From assembly GCA_937890335.1 (NCBI GenBank), contig CALBXO010000670.1, forward strand, positions 1 through 39,014: a stretch of DNA of 39,014 nt, given 5' to 3'. Position 1 is the stretch's first letter; each line of letters begins with the position of its first letter. The DNA is from an uncultured Pseudomonadota bacterium (lineage in GTDB: Bacteria; Myxococcota_A; Bradymonadia; Bradymonadales; GCA-2716585). Shown here piece by piece: positions 12,777 to 22,348 of the stretch. The position numbers and the translations under genes are program-made. The notes beneath the pieces are model-generated. The model was not told the origin of the DNA. It saw nothing but the letters and a program-made list of their open reading frames with translations, and made no database searches.

Positions 12777-15245
12777 TCACTGCAGCACGAATATCTTACT
12801 CACCTGCATCGGCCGGCCGGCGAAGCTCGCGAACTTCCACCGGCTGCGATGCGCATTCATACAAGCCGCGAACGGCGTATTCTTCACGACCGCGTCCATC
12901 CCTACGTCCTGAACCGCGCCAGAACCGGCGATGGTGACCGTGACCTTGACCTTGGATTTGGGAAGCGGACCGCTGACCTTCATGTTTCGCTCCAGACACT
13001 GTCCGGCCGATCGGCGGATGTGCTTGAAGCCAAGCTGCAGGTCGGCCCGCGTCAGGCTTGCGGGCAATTGCGCCGGCGCGCCCTTATCGGGCTCGTCCTT
13101 CTTGCGCCCCTCGATGTTGGTCCCGCCAGCCCCGGCCAGAAGCCCTCCGCCGGTGCGGACGCTTGGCAGCCGGCCCCCGCCCCCGCCGACATCCACACTG
13201 GCTCGCTCGCCAGTGTCCGCGACTTTGGGCTTGTCCCGCTCTCCAGGAGAGGCCTGCGGGTTGCCACCGACCTTGTCGGAGCTCGCCAGCGCCTTCTCCA
13301 GCGCCGAACGCGTGTCCTTGGGGGCTTTTGCCACCTTCCGGGGCTCCTTCTTCTTCTTCTCGTCGCCGGCTTCCACCTCAGCGTCCGTGTCGGCTGCGGC
13401 CACACCGGCGTCCGGCTCTTCGCCATCCGGCTCAGCGACGACTTCTTCCTCACCCAGATTGACGACCAGCTCCGCGAGCTCGTCCTTTGAGTAGGTCTTC
13501 AGATTGTCGACGTCGGCCCCTTTGACCTTCGCCGCGTCCGCCATCCGTCGGCCCTCTTCTACCTGCTCGGCCAACGCGCGCTTCTGGGTGTCGTCGTCGA
13601 GCACAACAAAGATCACGACGCCGGCGGTCACGGCGAAGAACAGCACAGCCAGCCCGGCGACCGCCGCGAACATCTGCGCGCGGCGCTTGCCCTTGCGTAC
13701 GGTGTCGAGCTGGATGAGCAGCGAAGCAGAGTGTTCGTCGTCCTGCCCGACTGCCTTCTGCGCCGCGGAGGAAATGGGGCGCAGCCCTCCCGGCACGGAG
13801 CTGCCGGTCTGCTCGGGAAACAACGCTCCCATGGTCGGCGCGGGGTTGTCTGCATCACTGGACGCAGACGGTGCCACAACCGGGTCTGCCGCCTTCGGCG
13901 TGGGCGCAGGTGCGGAGGGAGTGGGAGACGGGTGGGTGTCCAGCGCCGTCAGCGCTTCCACCACGCCCTCTGACATCTCCACCGTGGCGAGGTCCGCAGA
14001 ACCCTGCGCGTCGTGCACAGCTTGCGGGGCCGTGGACAACGATGCGTCGGTGTCGGCGTCCGCTTCCACGGATGCCTCGGCGCGCGCCTCGGCCAGGACA
14101 TCGCGCACCGTCATCGGGTCCGGGGCCGTCTCCTCGACAGTGCTGGCGCGGGCCCGAGCCTCCGCGACCACGTCCCGGACGGTCAGTTCGCTCCCCGCTT
14201 CTGGGGCGGGCGAATGCACCTCCGCCTCGGGTGCGACTGCCGGCGCTGGCTCCAGATCCGGCGCCTGCGCGGGCTCCAGCTCCGACACCGCGACGACGGT
14301 GACCTCCTCCGGACCCGCCGTCAGCGCTGCCAGAAGTTCCTCGGGCACGTCGCCCTTGACCGTCTTCTCGTCGTCGTGGCCCGCAGTTGCGGGCGCAGCG
14401 GGAGCCACATCCGGTTTCTTGACGCCCTTGAGCCGCTCGCGCAGCGATCCGGTGGTTCCGAGATTCGAGCCGCCCTTGAGCCGCTCACGAAGCGCCCGCA
14501 GGCGATCCTCGGTCGCGACCTTGCCACGCTTGCCAAGGGGCGGACGCGCGGCTTCCGGGAGACCGGCAGACGGAGCGACGGCGGCGGGGCGCGGGGCGGC
14601 CACTGGGGACGCCGCCGGCCGTGACATCGCGCTCTGGCCCTTGCCGTCGCCGCGCGTTCGCGAAGCGCGCTTCAGAATGGAGGGAAGATCCTGGGAGCTC
14701 GGCGACGAGGACGGGCTCGGTACAGGCGCACTCGACGCAGCAACGGGGCGACTTGCCGATGGATTCGGCGCGCTCTGCACATCGATCGCCGACAGCGCGA
14801 TCGTTGGGCTGTGCGGCCGGCGCACCGACCCTGCGGCGAAGTACTTTTGAAGCTCGGGGACATCCTTGCCCGGCTTCCACGCGTCGAACGTCTCGTTCCA
14901 CACATAGGCCTCATCGCCCAGGCTCCCACCGGCAAATCGCCCGGCGAGGTCCTCGACAGACAAAGGCCCGTACGTCTGCCCGCCCACGGAGTAGAACCAC
15001 GGAACTCCGGTCATCGGCGCTGGCGGGGGAGCTGCCCCCGTCCCTACAGCCGAGTGCGATCCCGTGTTGCGCAACCGACGCGCAAGATCGCCCACAGAGC
15101 GGTGCTCGGCGCTCGTCGGTCGCGACGGCTCCTTCACCACCATGATGTGATCGCATTTCTTACATCGGATGCGCAGCACCTTGGCGCGAACTTTCTCGTC
15201 GCCAATCAGGTACTTCGCTCCACAGCTGTCGCAGTAGAACTTCAT
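12777..15245 (-). CDS. GltJ/AgmX-like trans-envelope protein (zinc ribbon - GYF - TM - AgmX C-terminal domain)
   Basis: This 822-residue protein begins at ATG 15245, just after GGAGGC. Its order of domains is as follows. An MJ0042-type zinc ribbon comes first (C5, C8, C28, C31). A GYF_2 domain follows at about 82-137 (WFYSVGGQTYGPLSVEDLA...). A long Ala/Pro/Glu cytoplasmic linker carries repeated motifs (LRERLKG twice, TVRDVxAEARAxAS twice). One membrane helix lies at about 524-549. A charged periplasmic linker is followed by an AgmX/PglI C-terminal domain at about 732-822 with two Cys. This is the architecture of Myxococcus xanthus GltJ (AgmX), an inner-membrane protein of the gliding machine whose zinc ribbon and GYF domains contact regulators including MglA. 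Whether this host glides is unknown. Two co-transcribed exported proteins follow it. Confidence 0.9.
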   Translation of the reverse strand: MKFYCDSCGAKYLIGDEKVRAKVLRIRCKKCDHIMVVKEPSRPTSAEHRSVGDLARRLRNTGSHSAVGTGAAPPPAPMTGVPWFYSVGGQTYGPLSVEDLAGRFAGGSLGDEAYVWNETFDAWKPGKDVPELQKYFAAGSVRRPHSPTIALSAIDVQSAPNPSASRPVAASSAPVPSPSSSPSSQDLPSILKRASRTRGDGKGQSAMSRPAASPVAAPRPAAVAPSAGLPEAARPPLGKRGKVATEDRLRALRERLKGGSNLGTTGSLRERLKGVKKPDVAPAAPATAGHDDEKTVKGDVPEELLAALTAGPEEVTVVAVSELEPAQAPDLEPAPAVAPEAEVHSPAPEAGSELTVRDVVAEARARASTVEETAPDPMTVRDVLAEARAEASVEADADTDASLSTAPQAVHDAQGSADLATVEMSEGVVEALTALDTHPSPTPSAPAPTPKAADPVVAPSASSDADNPAPTMGALFPEQTGSSVPGGLRPISSAAQKAVGQDDEHSASLLIQLDTVRKGKRRAQMFAAVAGLAVLFFAVTAGVVIFVVLDDDTQKRALAEQVEEGRRMADAAKVKGADVDNLKTYSKDELAELVVNLGEEEVVAEPDGEEPDAGVAAADTDAEVEAGDEKKKKEPRKVAKAPKDTRSALEKALASSDKVGGNPQASPGERDKPKVADTGERASVDVGGGGGRLPSVRTGGGLLAGAGGTNIEGRKKDEPDKGAPAQLPASLTRADLQLGFKHIRRSAGQCLERNMKVSGPLPKSKVKVTVTIAGSGAVQDVGMDAVVKNTPFAACMNAHRSRWKFASFAGRPMQVSKIFVLQ

Positions 15246-17165: not shown

Positions 17166-20100
17166 CTACTGGATGTAGTTGGCCGCGTCTCCCTGAGCGT
17201 TACCGTCCGCGTCGATCCAGGAGTCGAGGATCCTGGCGCCCGCGAAGTTGTTGTTCACGTCACCGACAAGCTTGCCGAGAACCTGGGCACCGAGCGGACC
17301 GGACATCTCACCGTTGGAGGCGCCGATACGTTGCGTACCGCGGTTGCTCAGCCGGGGGTGCGCTGTACCGGCGTTCGGAACGCCGTTGAGCTGCACAAGC
17401 CGGTCGAGGTCGTAGACGACATTGTTCGGGTCGAAGTTGTCTGCGGGCGCGCCGTCCGGGCAGTACTGCCGGTTGGCGTTGGCGTCGAGCGGGTTGACCG
17501 GGCAACCGGTCGCGTCGAACCAGAAGAGACCAGAACCAAGACCGGCGACCATGTGGACCCAGTAAGGCTCGTTGTTCTGGTTGCCCGTGTTCTGACCGAT
17601 CGTCGCCTGGAGCACGGCGTGGTCCACGTTGGCGTAGTCGTTGTCGAAGATCGCCTGGGCGAAGGCGATGTAGTCCGCGTTGTTGGCCGGGTCCTGGTCC
17701 ACGTTGTAGTGGCAGGACACGCAGTAGCGCGGGCCTTCGTTATTGTTGTCGATCTTGCCGCGGATGCTGTGCGCCGACATCTGGTTCTGGGCCAGCGCCG
17801 GGAACGGACTGCGGGTACCGTTGTCCGGGTTGTTACCCTCACCGAGGCGATCGGAGAAGGCGAAGACGGCGGACTCGTTGTTGTTGAAGTCCTGGTACCG
17901 GTAGAACCACTTCTCGGCCGGGGAGATCTGGGTGATCTTACCGCGGCTGTTGACGCCCAGGTAGAACGGAACCGGCGTCTGGTAGACGAAGTCCGCGTTG
18001 GCCTGGAACAGCAGGATGCGCTCACCCGTGATGTTCGACGCGAAGTAGTTGTTCGGGTTCACGTCGTACTGGTTCTTGAGGTGACAACCGATGCAGTTGT
18101 TGGTCCACGAGGCGTGGCAGCTGCTGCAGTCCATCGTATCCGTGTGCGAGAAGCCCTGCTGGTACTGGTTGGGGTCCGTCTGGATCGGGCCCGTACCGGT
18201 CTGGTTGTTGCCGTCCGCGCGACCCATGGCGTAGGACGCCTTCGGGTTGTACAGCAGGCGCTGTGTGAGCGGGTTGCGCTTGTTGTTCTGGACGATGACA
18301 TCCTTGGTCTGCGGGATGTAGTGCCGCTGACCGTTGAGGCGGCTGACGAGCCAGTAGTCACCGTTCTGATCGCGCGACACGTGACGCAGCGAGTTGTTGG
18401 CGTCGTCCTGTCCGCAATCGACCTGGTCACCCTCGTAGTTGGTGCACTGCGCATACGCAGCGTACTCGCCGGTGGAGCCGTGACAGCTCTCGCAGCGGAT
18501 GGCCACGCCCTGGTCCTGCCGGCTGCGGATCTTACCGCTGGCGGCGTTGCCCTTGGTACCACCGTGCAGGTCGTTGGAGCCGTGACAGTCGATGCAGCCC
18601 ATGCCGGCCTCGTAGTGGATGTCGGCGGGGGTGTCATCGAGACCGTCCCCGTCGTAGTCCTCATAGACGATGTGCTGGGCGGCTGCGCGGCCGTTGAACG
18701 TGTTGTTGTTGACGGCCGGGTCGTAGAGCCGGTCGTCAGCGGCCGCGTCGTCGAAGTCGTCCGGGTTGGCCGGGTATTGGAAGTTGTTCGTCAGGTCCTG
18801 GTTCTGGTCCAGACGCACGCCCCAGAACTGGAGCACGGTCCGGTTGGAACCCTGGTGGCAGCCGACGCAGGCGCGGTCGCTGATGCCGCGGACGAAGGTA
18901 CCGTTGTTCAGGAACTTGGCGACGTTGCGGATCTGGTGCGACTCCACATGCGCGCGCTCCGGAGCGGCGATCGCATCCGGGTCAGCCGGCTCGAGGCGGT
19001 CCACATTGGGATCACCGGAGCGGCTGCGGCCGTCGTAGCTGTACTCCATATGGCATGCCGTGCAGCCGGAGGAGCGGAAATCCGCGTACCGGTTGTTGGC
19101 GCCAGCGCTGTACAAGTGACAGTCACCGCAGGTGATGTTGACCTGCTCGTCGATGAGGGTCTCGAGCGGGCTGTTGTAGCGCACGCGGTTGGGACGCTGG
19201 GGGTCCTGGTTCGCGTTGATGATGTGGTTGGCCAGCGTGTTGGCGTCGTAGATGCCGTTGTCGCGCATCTCGCCCTGGAACTGCGCCTTCTCCGGCTGCT
19301 CCTGGAGGCGACCCACCTCACCGATCTCACGGTTCGCCTGCGCGTAGCCCGGGTTCTGAACCTGGCGCGGCGCCGAGTCCGAGAGGCTGTCGCCGTCCAT
19401 GTTCCGGCCGCGGTACTCGGAGATGCGGTTGTCCACACCGTACCCAAAGCGGGTCGAGGAGAAGATGCCGTTGGTGGTGCCGATGATGCTGCGGGGGACC
19501 CACTGGCCATGCTCATCGCCGTGGCAGCCATTGGCGCCGCAGGAGCGGCCCTCGGCCACGATGCGAAGATCGCCGGGGTTGATGAACTGGAGGTACTCGA
19601 GGTTGGTGAACTGCTCGCCCGGCCTGTCAGGGGCGGTATAGGTCTCGTTCGGAGCGCGTCCACCAAGTCGGTCGATGCCTGAGAGGGTCAGGCGGTTGAA
19701 GTATGCGATCGCATCGTTCTGGAGAATCTCGTCCGTCCCGATCTCGGGCGGGGCCGGAACGTGACTGCCCAACTTGCCCGCGCCGTCGCCCGCGCCGCCG
19801 TGGCAGCCGGTGCAACGCACGTTACCCTGCGGCGGGAACGGGTGCGGGTTCGACAGGCCGGGGCCCGCGTAGTCGTTGTAGTCGGAGCCGTTGTGGCAGT
19901 TCATGCACGACTCGCCCTGGGGCGTATTGTCGTCGCACGGGCCGCAATCCTCCGTGCAGGTAGTGCAGTTCTCGCCGTTCTCGGGGGAACAGGTGCCATC
20001 ACCGCAGGTGCACTCCGGATTCGGATTGCAGTATTGCGGGCAGACGTTGCAGCACTCGGTTACCTGCGGGATGTCCTCAGGGCCGAGCTCGCAGAAGTCG

Positions 20101-20354
20101 AGCTGGTCGCAGAAATCCGGACACTCCGGCGCGGGCACGTCAGGCTCGCCGTTGTTTCCAACGTCCGGCTCGCCATTGTTCCCACCATCCGGCCCACCGT
20201 TGTTCCCACCGTCGGGCCCCCCGTTGTTGCCGTTGTTTCCATTGTTGCCGTTGTTTCCGGCCTCGATGGGGTCGGGCTGACAGCCCCAGGCCCCTGCGGC
20301 CAACAGCGCCACCATCGCGACCAGCGCGGTAGCTCTCACATTCTTCGTGATCAC
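17166..20354 (-). CDS. Multihaem c-type cytochrome lipoprotein (10 CXXCH + 1 CX4CH)
   Basis: This protein has about 1062 residues. GTG 20354 is chosen because a GGGGGA ribosome site lies 5 bases upstream and a strong promoter (20398-20425) overlaps the longer frame. The signal MITKNVRATALVAMVALLAAGAWGC ends in a lipobox-like AWGC. A linker of repeated Asn-Asn-Gly and Gly-Pro-Asp units follows, and then a Cys-rich stretch with 'CGDGTCSPENGENC'. Eleven haem-attachment motifs follow across the protein: CMNCH, CTGCH, CGANGCH (CX4CH), CGDCH, CTACH, CVGCH, CIDCH, CESCH, CSSCH, CIGCH and CVSCH. The last 250 residues have none and may be a binding or structural domain. It is exported and lipid-anchored, probably on the outer membrane, and likely carries electrons. 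I do not recognise a named subfamily. No porin or second decahaem cytochrome is nearby. Confidence 0.9.
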   Translation of the reverse strand: MITKNVRATALVAMVALLAAGAWGCQPDPIEAGNNGNNGNNGNNGGPDGGNNGGPDGGNNGEPDVGNNGEPDVPAPECPDFCDQLDFCELGPEDIPQVTECCNVCPQYCNPNPECTCGDGTCSPENGENCTTCTEDCGPCDDNTPQGESCMNCHNGSDYNDYAGPGLSNPHPFPPQGNVRCTGCHGGAGDGAGKLGSHVPAPPEIGTDEILQNDAIAYFNRLTLSGIDRLGGRAPNETYTAPDRPGEQFTNLEYLQFINPGDLRIVAEGRSCGANGCHGDEHGQWVPRSIIGTTNGIFSSTRFGYGVDNRISEYRGRNMDGDSLSDSAPRQVQNPGYAQANREIGEVGRLQEQPEKAQFQGEMRDNGIYDANTLANHIINANQDPQRPNRVRYNSPLETLIDEQVNITCGDCHLYSAGANNRYADFRSSGCTACHMEYSYDGRSRSGDPNVDRLEPADPDAIAAPERAHVESHQIRNVAKFLNNGTFVRGISDRACVGCHQGSNRTVLQFWGVRLDQNQDLTNNFQYPANPDDFDDAAADDRLYDPAVNNNTFNGRAAAQHIVYEDYDGDGLDDTPADIHYEAGMGCIDCHGSNDLHGGTKGNAASGKIRSRQDQGVAIRCESCHGSTGEYAAYAQCTNYEGDQVDCGQDDANNSLRHVSRDQNGDYWLVSRLNGQRHYIPQTKDVIVQNNKRNPLTQRLLYNPKASYAMGRADGNNQTGTGPIQTDPNQYQQGFSHTDTMDCSSCHASWTNNCIGCHLKNQYDVNPNNYFASNITGERILLFQANADFVYQTPVPFYLGVNSRGKITQISPAEKWFYRYQDFNNNESAVFAFSDRLGEGNNPDNGTRSPFPALAQNQMSAHSIRGKIDNNNEGPRYCVSCHYNVDQDPANNADYIAFAQAIFDNDYANVDHAVLQATIGQNTGNQNNEPYWVHMVAGLGSGLFWFDATGCPVNPLDANANRQYCPDGAPADNFDPNNVVYDLDRLVQLNGVPNAGTAHPRLSNRGTQRIGASNGEMSGPLGAQVLGKLVGDVNNNFAGARILDSWIDADGNAQGDAANYIQ
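20140..20259 (-). repeat. Tandem linker repeats encoding NNG / GPDGGNNG
   Basis: Inside the multihaem lipoprotein gene, about 120 bases consist of short degenerate units (9-base NNG-coding and 18-base GPDGGNNG/GEPDVGNNG-coding). They produce a flexible hydrophilic tether just after the lipid-anchored Cys. Such repeats vary in number between strains by slippage. Confidence 0.8.
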
Positions 20355-20397
20355 ACTGTCCCCCTGACAGGTTTCTCCGGACACCAAAGCGTCCCCT

Positions 20398-20425
20398 ACC
20401 ATAGCAATATCGCTGCCAGCGTCAA
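20398..20425 (-). promoter_or_regulatory. Extended -10 promoter of the multihaem cytochrome gene
   Basis: On the minus strand TTGACG (20420-20425), a 16-base spacer and TATGGT (20398-20403) preceded by TGC form a near-consensus sigma-70 promoter with an extended -10. The predicted start near 20391 gives a 37-base leader that contains the GGGGGA ribosome site of GTG 20354. Confidence 0.72.
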
Positions 20426-20479
20426 ACGGCTGAGGCCGCAGCAAGTGCGTTCCGGGCCAGAATCGACGCAATAACGACG

Positions 20480-21538
20480 TTAGCAGAGATTTTTTTCGAG
20501 ATTCCGCAGCACTGCATCGGTCGCTGACTCCGTCGAGAGCTGTCCACCAATGTCCCCAGTGGTGTCACCAGACCCCAGCGCATCGCGCACGGCTGTCTCG
20601 ATCGCGACTGCGGCTTGCGCTGCGCCGTGTGTGCTCATCAGCAGGGCCCCAGTCAGGATCGCCGCGAACGGATTGGCCAGCCCCTGCCCGGCAATGTCGG
20701 GCGCCGTCCCATGAACTGGCTCAAACAGACCCAGCCGCCCCGGGTGGAGGTTCGCGCTGATGGCCATGCCCAGGCCACCCTGCAGCGCGGCGCCCATGTC
20801 GGTCACGATGTCGCCGAACAGGTTTCCCGTTACGATGACATCAAACTCCTCCGGGCACCGGATCAGGTGCATGCACAAGGCGTCGATGTACTCCTCACGC
20901 GTAACGATCTCAGGGAACTCCAATGCGATCGCTTTGAACGACTCGCGCCAGAGGGCACCCACGAACGGTAGTGCATTGGCTTTGTCGGCCATGCACACAG
21001 TCTTGCGCTTGTGGGCGCGCGCGTACTCAAACGCCGCGCGCACAATCCGGTCCACACCGCCGCGCGTACACACCATCGTCTGGGTGGCCACCTCGTTGGG
21101 CGTTCCGGCCTTCATTCGTCCGCCATGCCCGGTGTACAGCCCCTCGGTGTTCTCCCGGAACACGACAAAATCCAGGTCCGCGGCGGTCTTGCCCCGCAGC
21201 GGGACGAGGTCCTCGCGCCAGCACCGAATCGGCCTGAAGTTGATGTAGAGGTCCAGGCGGAACCGGAGCCCAAGGAGGATGTCCCGCGCGTGCCGGCTGT
21301 CCGGAACCCGCGGGTCTCCCAAACCACCGAGCAAGATCGCGTCGAACTCACGCTCCAGCCGGGCAAACTCGCTGTCCGGGATCGTCTCACCTGTGGACAG
21401 GTAGTGATCTGCGCCGTAGGGCAGATCCTCGGTCGTCAATTCGACATCGAACGCAGCGGCTGCCGCCCGCATGACCCGCAGGGCCTGCGGCACAACCTCT
21501 TTGCCGATCCCGTCGCCGGGTATGATCGCAATGTGCAT
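20480..21538 (-). CDS. Isocitrate/isopropylmalate dehydrogenase family, probably 3-isopropylmalate dehydrogenase (LeuB)
   Basis: This 352-residue protein belongs to the NAD(P)-dependent beta-decarboxylating dehydrogenases. The N-terminus IAIIPGDGIGKEV is the family signature. It also has 'LPYGADHYLSTGETIPD', 'AILLGGLGDPRVPD', 'LRFRLDLYINFRPI' with the substrate-binding arginines, 'FVVFRENTEGLY', the Mg-binding 'DVIVTGNLFGDIVTDMGAALQGGLGMA', and 'EPVHGTAPDIAG' near the coenzyme site. Length fits LeuB. Tartrate and homoisocitrate dehydrogenases are close alternatives, and no leucine genes adjoin to decide. ATG 21538 follows the tRNA-Phe gene by only 11 bases with no ribosome-binding sequence, yet the start is fixed by the conserved N-terminus. 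A run of seven A (minus strand, 20490-20496) lies just before the stop. Confidence 0.9.
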   Translation of the reverse strand: MHIAIIPGDGIGKEVVPQALRVMRAAAAAFDVELTTEDLPYGADHYLSTGETIPDSEFARLEREFDAILLGGLGDPRVPDSRHARDILLGLRFRLDLYINFRPIRCWREDLVPLRGKTAADLDFVVFRENTEGLYTGHGGRMKAGTPNEVATQTMVCTRGGVDRIVRAAFEYARAHKRKTVCMADKANALPFVGALWRESFKAIALEFPEIVTREEYIDALCMHLIRCPEEFDVIVTGNLFGDIVTDMGAALQGGLGMAISANLHPGRLGLFEPVHGTAPDIAGQGLANPFAAILTGALLMSTHGAAQAAVAIETAVRDALGSGDTTGDIGGQLSTESATDAVLRNLEKNLC

Positions 21539-21549
21539 GGGGTGGGAAA

Positions 21550-21622
21550 TGGGCAGGGACGGAATCGAACCGCCGACACGGGGATTTTCAGTCCCCTGCT
21601 CTACCGACTGAGCTACCTGCCC
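21550..21622 (-). tRNA. tRNA-Phe (anticodon GAA)
   Basis: On the minus strand a complete 73-base cloverleaf is visible. The 7-bp acceptor GGGCAGG pairs with CCTGCCC. The D-arm is GCTC-AGTCGGTA-GAGC. The anticodon stem GGGGA/TCCCC holds the loop CTGAAAA (anticodon GAA), and the T-arm is GGCGG-TTCGATT-CCGTC. The discriminator base is A and CCA is not encoded. The anticodon arm and identity nucleotides are those of bacterial tRNA-Phe. Confidence 0.97.
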
Positions 21623-21652
21623 GTGGGTGCGCCAGAGGCGAACCGGGGGCTA

Positions 21653-21681
21653 CTTATAAGCAGGTGCCCGGGGGGTGTCAA
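21653..21681 (-). promoter_or_regulatory. Consensus sigma-70 promoter of tRNA-Phe
   Basis: On the minus strand a perfect -35 TTGACA (21676-21681) and -10 TATAAG (21653-21658) are separated by exactly 17 bases. The -10 is followed by a C/G-rich discriminator (GTAGCCCCCGG), typical of stable-RNA promoters under stringent control. The predicted start lies near 21646, about 24 bases before the tRNA 5' end. It is also the only evident promoter for the dehydrogenase gene. Confidence 0.88.
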
Positions 21682-21847: not shown

Positions 21848-22231
21848 CTACGCAGCCAAAGACTGCCCGAGGACGGGGTGGTAGCCCAGCGCGGCGTCGT
21901 ACTCCACGCGGGCCTGCTCCGGGCGCCACGGGCGCAGCTCCTGGATCAAGTCCGACAGGCCGGCCTCTTCCAGCGCGACCCTGCGGCACAGGTCGGCGTA
22001 GAGTGACGCGAGCGGTTCGCGGTGGTGCAACCGGGCCGCGACACCCCAACCGCTGTATCGCACGTCGCCCAACCGCTCCATCTCGCCCAAATCAGCCCCG
22101 CCCCGGTAGGCCGAGAGCACGACAGTCCACGCCGCTTCATCCCCGTCATCCAGGGCGGCCAGATCAAAGGCGCCATCGAGCAGGGTCACATGAACTCTGC
22201 CGTCGCTGAAACCGTAGGTCTGTCGCTTCAT
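21848..22231 (-). CDS. Small protein of unknown function
   Basis: This 127-residue protein starts at ATG 22231 with GAGGTGG 5-6 bases upstream. The extension to 22321 would cross a sigma-54-like site and is rejected. It has no signal or membrane segment. The sequence opens with strands (YGFSDGRVHVTLLDGAFDLAALDDGDEAAWTVVLSAYRGG) and ends in acidic helices (LYADLCRRVALEEAGLSDLIQELRPW). No family is recognised. The gene is alone on its transcript, between the GltG-like gene's terminator and the tRNA promoter. Confidence 0.6.
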   Translation of the reverse strand: MKRQTYGFSDGRVHVTLLDGAFDLAALDDGDEAAWTVVLSAYRGGADLGEMERLGDVRYSGWGVAARLHHREPLASLYADLCRRVALEEAGLSDLIQELRPWRPEQARVEYDAALGYHPVLGQSLAA

Positions 22232-22264
22232 GCTGCCACCTCTCTGACGATGCAGAGGGGCAAC

Positions 22265-22280
22265 AGCACGGGCCGTGCCA
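22265..22280 (-). promoter_or_regulatory. Sigma-54-like (-24/-12) site
   Basis: On the minus strand TGGCACGGCCCGTGCT matches the sigma-54 consensus TGGCACGnnnnTTGCW at every defined base but one, with GG and GC twelve bases apart. It lies 33-34 bases before ATG 22231, leaving room for a short leader with its ribosome site. The same bases form an imperfect palindrome (GCACGG-G-CCGTGC), so an operator or chance match is possible. Confidence 0.4.
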
Positions 22281-22348
22281 ATTGTTCCACGTCGGAGTTT
22301 TGACACGCTGCGCGCCGTCATAGACGGGCCGGCAGATCAAAGTGAGGA

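Follow-up and report, generated by a model that had tools for sequence, protein, structure and literature searches.

Organization of the tRNA-Phe/leuB-like locus

The window analysed in this study (the whole stretch of 39,014 nt) comes from an uncultured relative of predatory bacteria and contains, on its minus strand, a tRNA-Phe(GAA) gene that is followed almost immediately by a gene of the LeuB/isocitrate dehydrogenase family (hereafter the leuB-like gene). A co-directional gene, gene X, lies upstream of this pair and a multihaem c-type cytochrome gene lies downstream (Table 1). The adjacency of the LeuB-family and cytochrome genes is conserved in this genome and in a relative, G004, and in three genera of the family tRNA-Phe has gene X, which encodes a small protein, next to it.

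Table 1. Features of the tRNA-Phe/leuB-like locus (positions in the window)
Feature	Position	Strand	Evidence
Gene X, upstream, co-directional; no Pfam family; start uncertain	21848..22321	-	Neighbour in G003 and G004
tRNA-Phe promoter, -35 element TTGACA	21676..21681	-	Sequence; recurrence in relatives
-10 element TATAAG, then a G/C-rich stretch	21653..21658	-	Sequence; TATAAG also in G004
tRNA-Phe(GAA), CCA not encoded	21550..21622	-	ARAGORN
TTTCCCACCCC, tRNA 3' trailer and sole leader of the downstream gene; no Shine-Dalgarno (SD) sequence	21539..21549	-	Sequence; fold
LeuB/isocitrate dehydrogenase family gene (Iso_dh), 352 aa	20480..21538	-	Pfam PF00180, NCBIfam NF002898, PDB 1w0d
Promoter-like site TTGACG-16-TATGGT before the cytochrome gene	20398..20425	-	Scan
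Multihaem c-type cytochrome gene frame; its start is uncertain and probably lies well 3' of 20471	17166..20471	-	Syntenic in G004

The two promoter elements are separated by 17 nt on the minus strand. The pattern TTGACA-N17-TATAAN was found once in the window and in none of 200 simulated windows, and the promoter is conserved before tRNA-Phe in relatives (TTGACA-17-TATAAG in G004 and TTGACA-17-TATACC in G003), which places it above chance. Comparable TTGAC-/TATA- pairs precede tRNA-Phe in several further genomes of the order, with the -10 variants TATAAG, TATAAC and TATACC. Judged by this recurrence, the predicted promoter is the one that ordinarily precedes tRNA-Phe in this bacterial group. 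It had been called perfect in the preliminary description, which holds for the -35 element; the -10 element matches at five of six positions, so this wording was slightly overstated.

The tRNA-Phe gene, which ARAGORN recovered without an encoded CCA as had been described, is present in a single copy in the assembly according to a whole-genome tRNA search and the anticodon listing. Across the tRNA genes listed for this genome, CCA is never encoded, and the discriminator is usually followed by T. RNase Z is encoded (336.9 bits against a curated cut-off of 292.95), so both elements of an RNase Z-processed precursor, a tRNA lacking CCA and the enzyme, occur in the same genome. Such processing is expected for tRNA-Phe because it lacks CCA, and it is plausible that RNase Z cleavage leaves an 11-nt SD-free leader, the predicted product being UUUCCCACCCC-AUG. 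In the literature searched, no direct precedent was found for leaderless bacterial mRNAs generated by tRNA processing, although such an absence is weak evidence.

The tRNA discriminator and the ATG at 21538 are indeed only 11 nt apart, with no SD in the gap. Folding of the tRNA-leuB precursor predicted that the leader and AUG are unpaired and that the tRNA fold is undisturbed by the downstream sequence. The reading frame is open upstream through the tRNA, up to a TAG located 114 nt 5' of the ATG, and no other in-frame ATG, GTG or TTG is present in between; alternative upstream starts were rejected on this basis. The homology to many relatives also sets in at residues 1-3, so the start is secure, in agreement with its earlier assignment from the conserved N-terminus. 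Nearby, just one purine-rich stretch resembles an SD; it is intragenic (AGAGG before a GTG at about codon 16) and lies past the conserved PGDGIG motif.

A consensus scan of the tRNA-leuB interval, covering only sigma-70-like sites, detected no promoter, consistent with the previous statement that no other one fits there, and no terminator-like site was found in the scan. The locus thus has the layout of a tRNA-mRNA unit, i.e., a promoter 5' of the tRNA and a same-strand protein gene 3' of it without an intervening terminator. With 11 nt, the predicted leader exceeds the distance of about 10 nt from 5' end to start codon below which an mRNA counts as leaderless. Considering that the cytochrome gene has a promoter-like site of its own, both here and in G004 (TTGACG-16-TATCTT), the putative tRNA-leuB unit may comprise no more than two genes.

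SD usage and other tRNA-gene junctions in the genome

An SD-like 4-mer was observed at the right distance before 14 of 30 first-ATG starts compared with 22 of 133 internal ATGs, in a small sample with crude start choice; this test replaced an earlier one, based on the best start per gene, whose result was hardly above the control. These numbers imply that SDs are used in this organism, yet many starts have no obvious one. SD-free starts are therefore only partly unusual here, about half of the sampled first-ATG starts being without an obvious SD. No 16S rRNA from which the anti-SD could be read was found in the assembly.

Several other tRNA genes directly precede protein-coding genes in this genome. 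Junctions with SDs were observed behind tRNA-Leu(TAG), tRNA-Met and tRNA-Leu(CAA), at distances of 24, 20 and 28 nt, respectively, and tRNA-Thr is located directly before tuf. The group tRNA-Gly-Thr-tuf with tRNA-Trp (G000:C195:1-4500) and a tRNA-Thr-Tyr pair at a contig end (G000:C909) apparently represent the two parts of a single classical tRNA-tuf cluster, divided between contigs. Behind a tRNA-Arg(TCT) gene lacking CCA (G000:C308, about 13176-13260; L055 1501-1583), the ATG of a TonB-domain gene lies 8 nt past the discriminator without an SD, and an alternative GTG lies 2 nt past it. The product of this gene (TonB_C/CarboxypepD_reg) has a signal-peptide-like N-terminus. A conserved tRNA-Arg/TonB junction was looked for, but in the relatives inspected tRNA-Arg(TCT) is not followed by one.

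Conservation of the junction in relatives

G004, a member of the same family, is the nearest relative that has the locus, and its LeuB-like protein is 68% identical. The order gene X, tRNA-Phe, leuB-like gene and multihaem cytochrome gene is kept in G004, with the promoter and tRNA-Phe inverted so as to face gene X. There, tRNA-Phe is followed by a strong intrinsic terminator and the leuB-like gene has its own SD, AGGAGG, shortly 5' of the ATG. The tRNA-Phe of G003 also converges on gene X, opposite to the orientation in the window; no leuB-like gene was found in G003, which is 65% complete.

Similar results were obtained from a wider set of genomes. SD-like leaders precede most of the close leuB homologues, and no tRNA was detected within 1.5 kb of the other homologues among the loci with that much flanking sequence. 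In other relatives most tRNA-Phe genes are solitary, many having a hairpin-like stretch behind them when inspected by eye, and in none of them does a leuB-like gene follow tRNA-Phe, as assessed by tRNA-Phe flanks and tblastn. Searching 379 genomes of the phylum with a degenerate junction pattern (tRNA T-arm, then 25-55 nt and the IPGDGI codons) returned a match with a tRNA in one genome only, that of this window; a second match, in G189, had no tRNA at that place.

The preliminary description had suggested a comparison of the 11-nt junction across related genomes. The junction proved not to be conserved, with the tRNA inverted in G004 and the junction absent in G003 and all other genomes searched, and a conserved tRNA-Phe/leuB operon was rejected. 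Since two relatives at the family level share the opposite tRNA orientation, the arrangement in the window is most simply regarded as a derived state, which would have arisen via inversion or re-insertion of the promoter-tRNA cassette. Divergence of the leader sequences is too great for the breakpoints of such a rearrangement to be located.

The downstream enzyme and amino acid metabolism

The leuB-like protein belongs to the Iso_dh family (315.5 bits with PF00180), and its best PDB match is 1w0d, LeuB of Mycobacterium tuberculosis. Its scores fall below every curated LeuB cut-off (378.9 versus 393 bits for NF002898 and 279.1 versus 353.2 bits for TIGR00169). The second Iso_dh gene in the genome is isocitrate-dehydrogenase-like. 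Neither LeuA nor LeuC was detected at the family cut-off in this genome, which is about 91% complete (best scores of 148/599 bits for leuA and 99.9/560 bits for leuC), or in four relatives of the family. Moreover, complete leucine and phenylalanine synthesis is absent from the published Bradymonadales (PMC7460792). The lack of these pathways and of LeuA and LeuC at the cut-off makes control by an amino acid signal a weak proposition, and the earlier label of "amino-acid-linked enzyme" is doubtful for a protein that misses both its expected partners and all curated LeuB cut-offs.

Possible origin and expression of the junction

The explanation that we favour, with moderate confidence, is that a local rearrangement in this lineage joined a cassette of promoter and tRNA-Phe head-to-tail to the 5' end of a LeuB-family gene that already existed, yielding a tRNA-mRNA co-transcript from which RNase Z would release an mRNA with an 11-nt SD-free leader; no regulatory purpose is needed. 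The leuB-like gene would then most likely be the second part of a transcript started at the tRNA promoter. RNase P would trim the 5' end of the tRNA, RNase Z would cut after the discriminator (21550/21549), and the released mRNA, with its leader predicted to be unstructured, would be translated by SD-independent initiation. From the sequence features, co-transcription of tRNA-Phe and the leuB-like gene is likely, and its combination with RNase Z-type release is the simplest reading, as the conserved promoter belongs to the tRNA itself, no terminator separates the two genes, the genome encodes RNase Z and no CCA-encoding tRNA is listed. This part of the preliminary interpretation stands. The regulatory link drawn in it is not supported, considering that the junction is not conserved and that neither starts poor in SDs nor tRNA-mRNA junctions stand out as exceptional here. 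The presence of the arrangement in a single genome and the opposite tRNA orientation in relatives make an accidental tRNA-mRNA fusion, rather than a conserved regulatory device, most likely.

tRNA sequences are a common source of assembly misjoins, and the draft consists of 972 contigs with 4.8% contamination, so an apparent flip of the tRNA segment could be an artefact of assembly or binning. However, the assembly has only one tRNA-Phe, the promoter stands in its natural register to the tRNA and both flanks are syntenic with G004, which makes such an error very unlikely. A different possibility is that the leuB-like gene is expressed mainly by read-through from gene X, or from a promoter in or close to the tRNA that escaped recognition, in which case the tRNA would be a passenger and the 11-nt leader would not be the main functional 5' end. 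Gene X and the leuB-like gene are co-directional both here and in G004, where the tRNA promoter cannot serve the latter, and the promoter scans were limited to sigma-70-like sites. On the other hand, gene X is separated from the tRNA by about 170 nt and a strong tRNA promoter, and in any transcript running through all three genes the tRNA would still be present and its 3' end would still be cleaved. We consider this possible but unlikely as the main route, while gene X, upstream on the same strand, could make a read-through contribution.

A selected device, in which the amount of an amino acid enzyme depends on tRNA maturation and a stringent-type promoter, would fit the G/C-rich stretch 3' of the -10 element, the lack of another SD for the leuB-like gene and the stringent-response system reported for Bradymonadales (PMC7460792). 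It appears highly improbable, however, given that the junction occurs in this genome only among the genomes searched, that the tRNA is oriented oppositely in G004 and G003, that LeuA and LeuC are not found at the cut-off and that published Bradymonadales have no complete leucine and phenylalanine pathways (PMC7460792). It is also rather doubtful that this lineage repeatedly uses RNase Z 3' processing to make near-leaderless SD-free mRNAs, at both the tRNA-Phe/leuB-like and the tRNA-Arg/TonB-domain junctions, with the rate of tRNA maturation feeding the translation of specific proteins.

If RNA mapping confirms the favoured rearrangement and co-transcript, the locus would be a clean natural case of a gene captured by a tRNA promoter via a tiny rearrangement, with an mRNA 5' end that depends on tRNA 3' processing and with relatives that show the seemingly earlier arrangement. 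Without conservation, it is more informative on operon rewiring than on regulation.

Comparison with known systems

In enteric bacteria, the thrU-tyrU-glyT-thrT-tufB operon combines tRNA genes and a protein gene in one transcription unit (PMC6134099). The present locus resembles it in the order of promoter, tRNA gene(s) and protein gene, and tuf of this genome likewise lies behind tRNA genes. However, this tuf has a purine-rich SD-like leader, whereas the tRNA-Phe/leuB junction is 11 nt long without an SD; further differences from the tufB operon are that tRNA-Phe lacks CCA here and that the arrangement is not conserved. Leaders shorter than 10 nt were reported for 264 mRNAs in Streptomyces coelicolor and five in Escherichia coli (PMC4681348). 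The putative leuB-like mRNA is similar in having a start codon near its predicted 5' end and no SD, but its leader is just beyond that definition, and its 5' end is predicted from tRNA 3' processing, whereas theirs are mapped transcription starts. The closest likeness within the same genome is the tRNA-Arg(TCT)/TonB junction, which shares the missing CCA, a short gap (8 nt) and the absence of an SD, and differs in its tRNA and gene. The tRNA-Phe/leuB-like locus is most likely a genome-specific tRNA-mRNA fusion, a further example of the co-transcription already known from tufB, with an unusually short SD-free junction.
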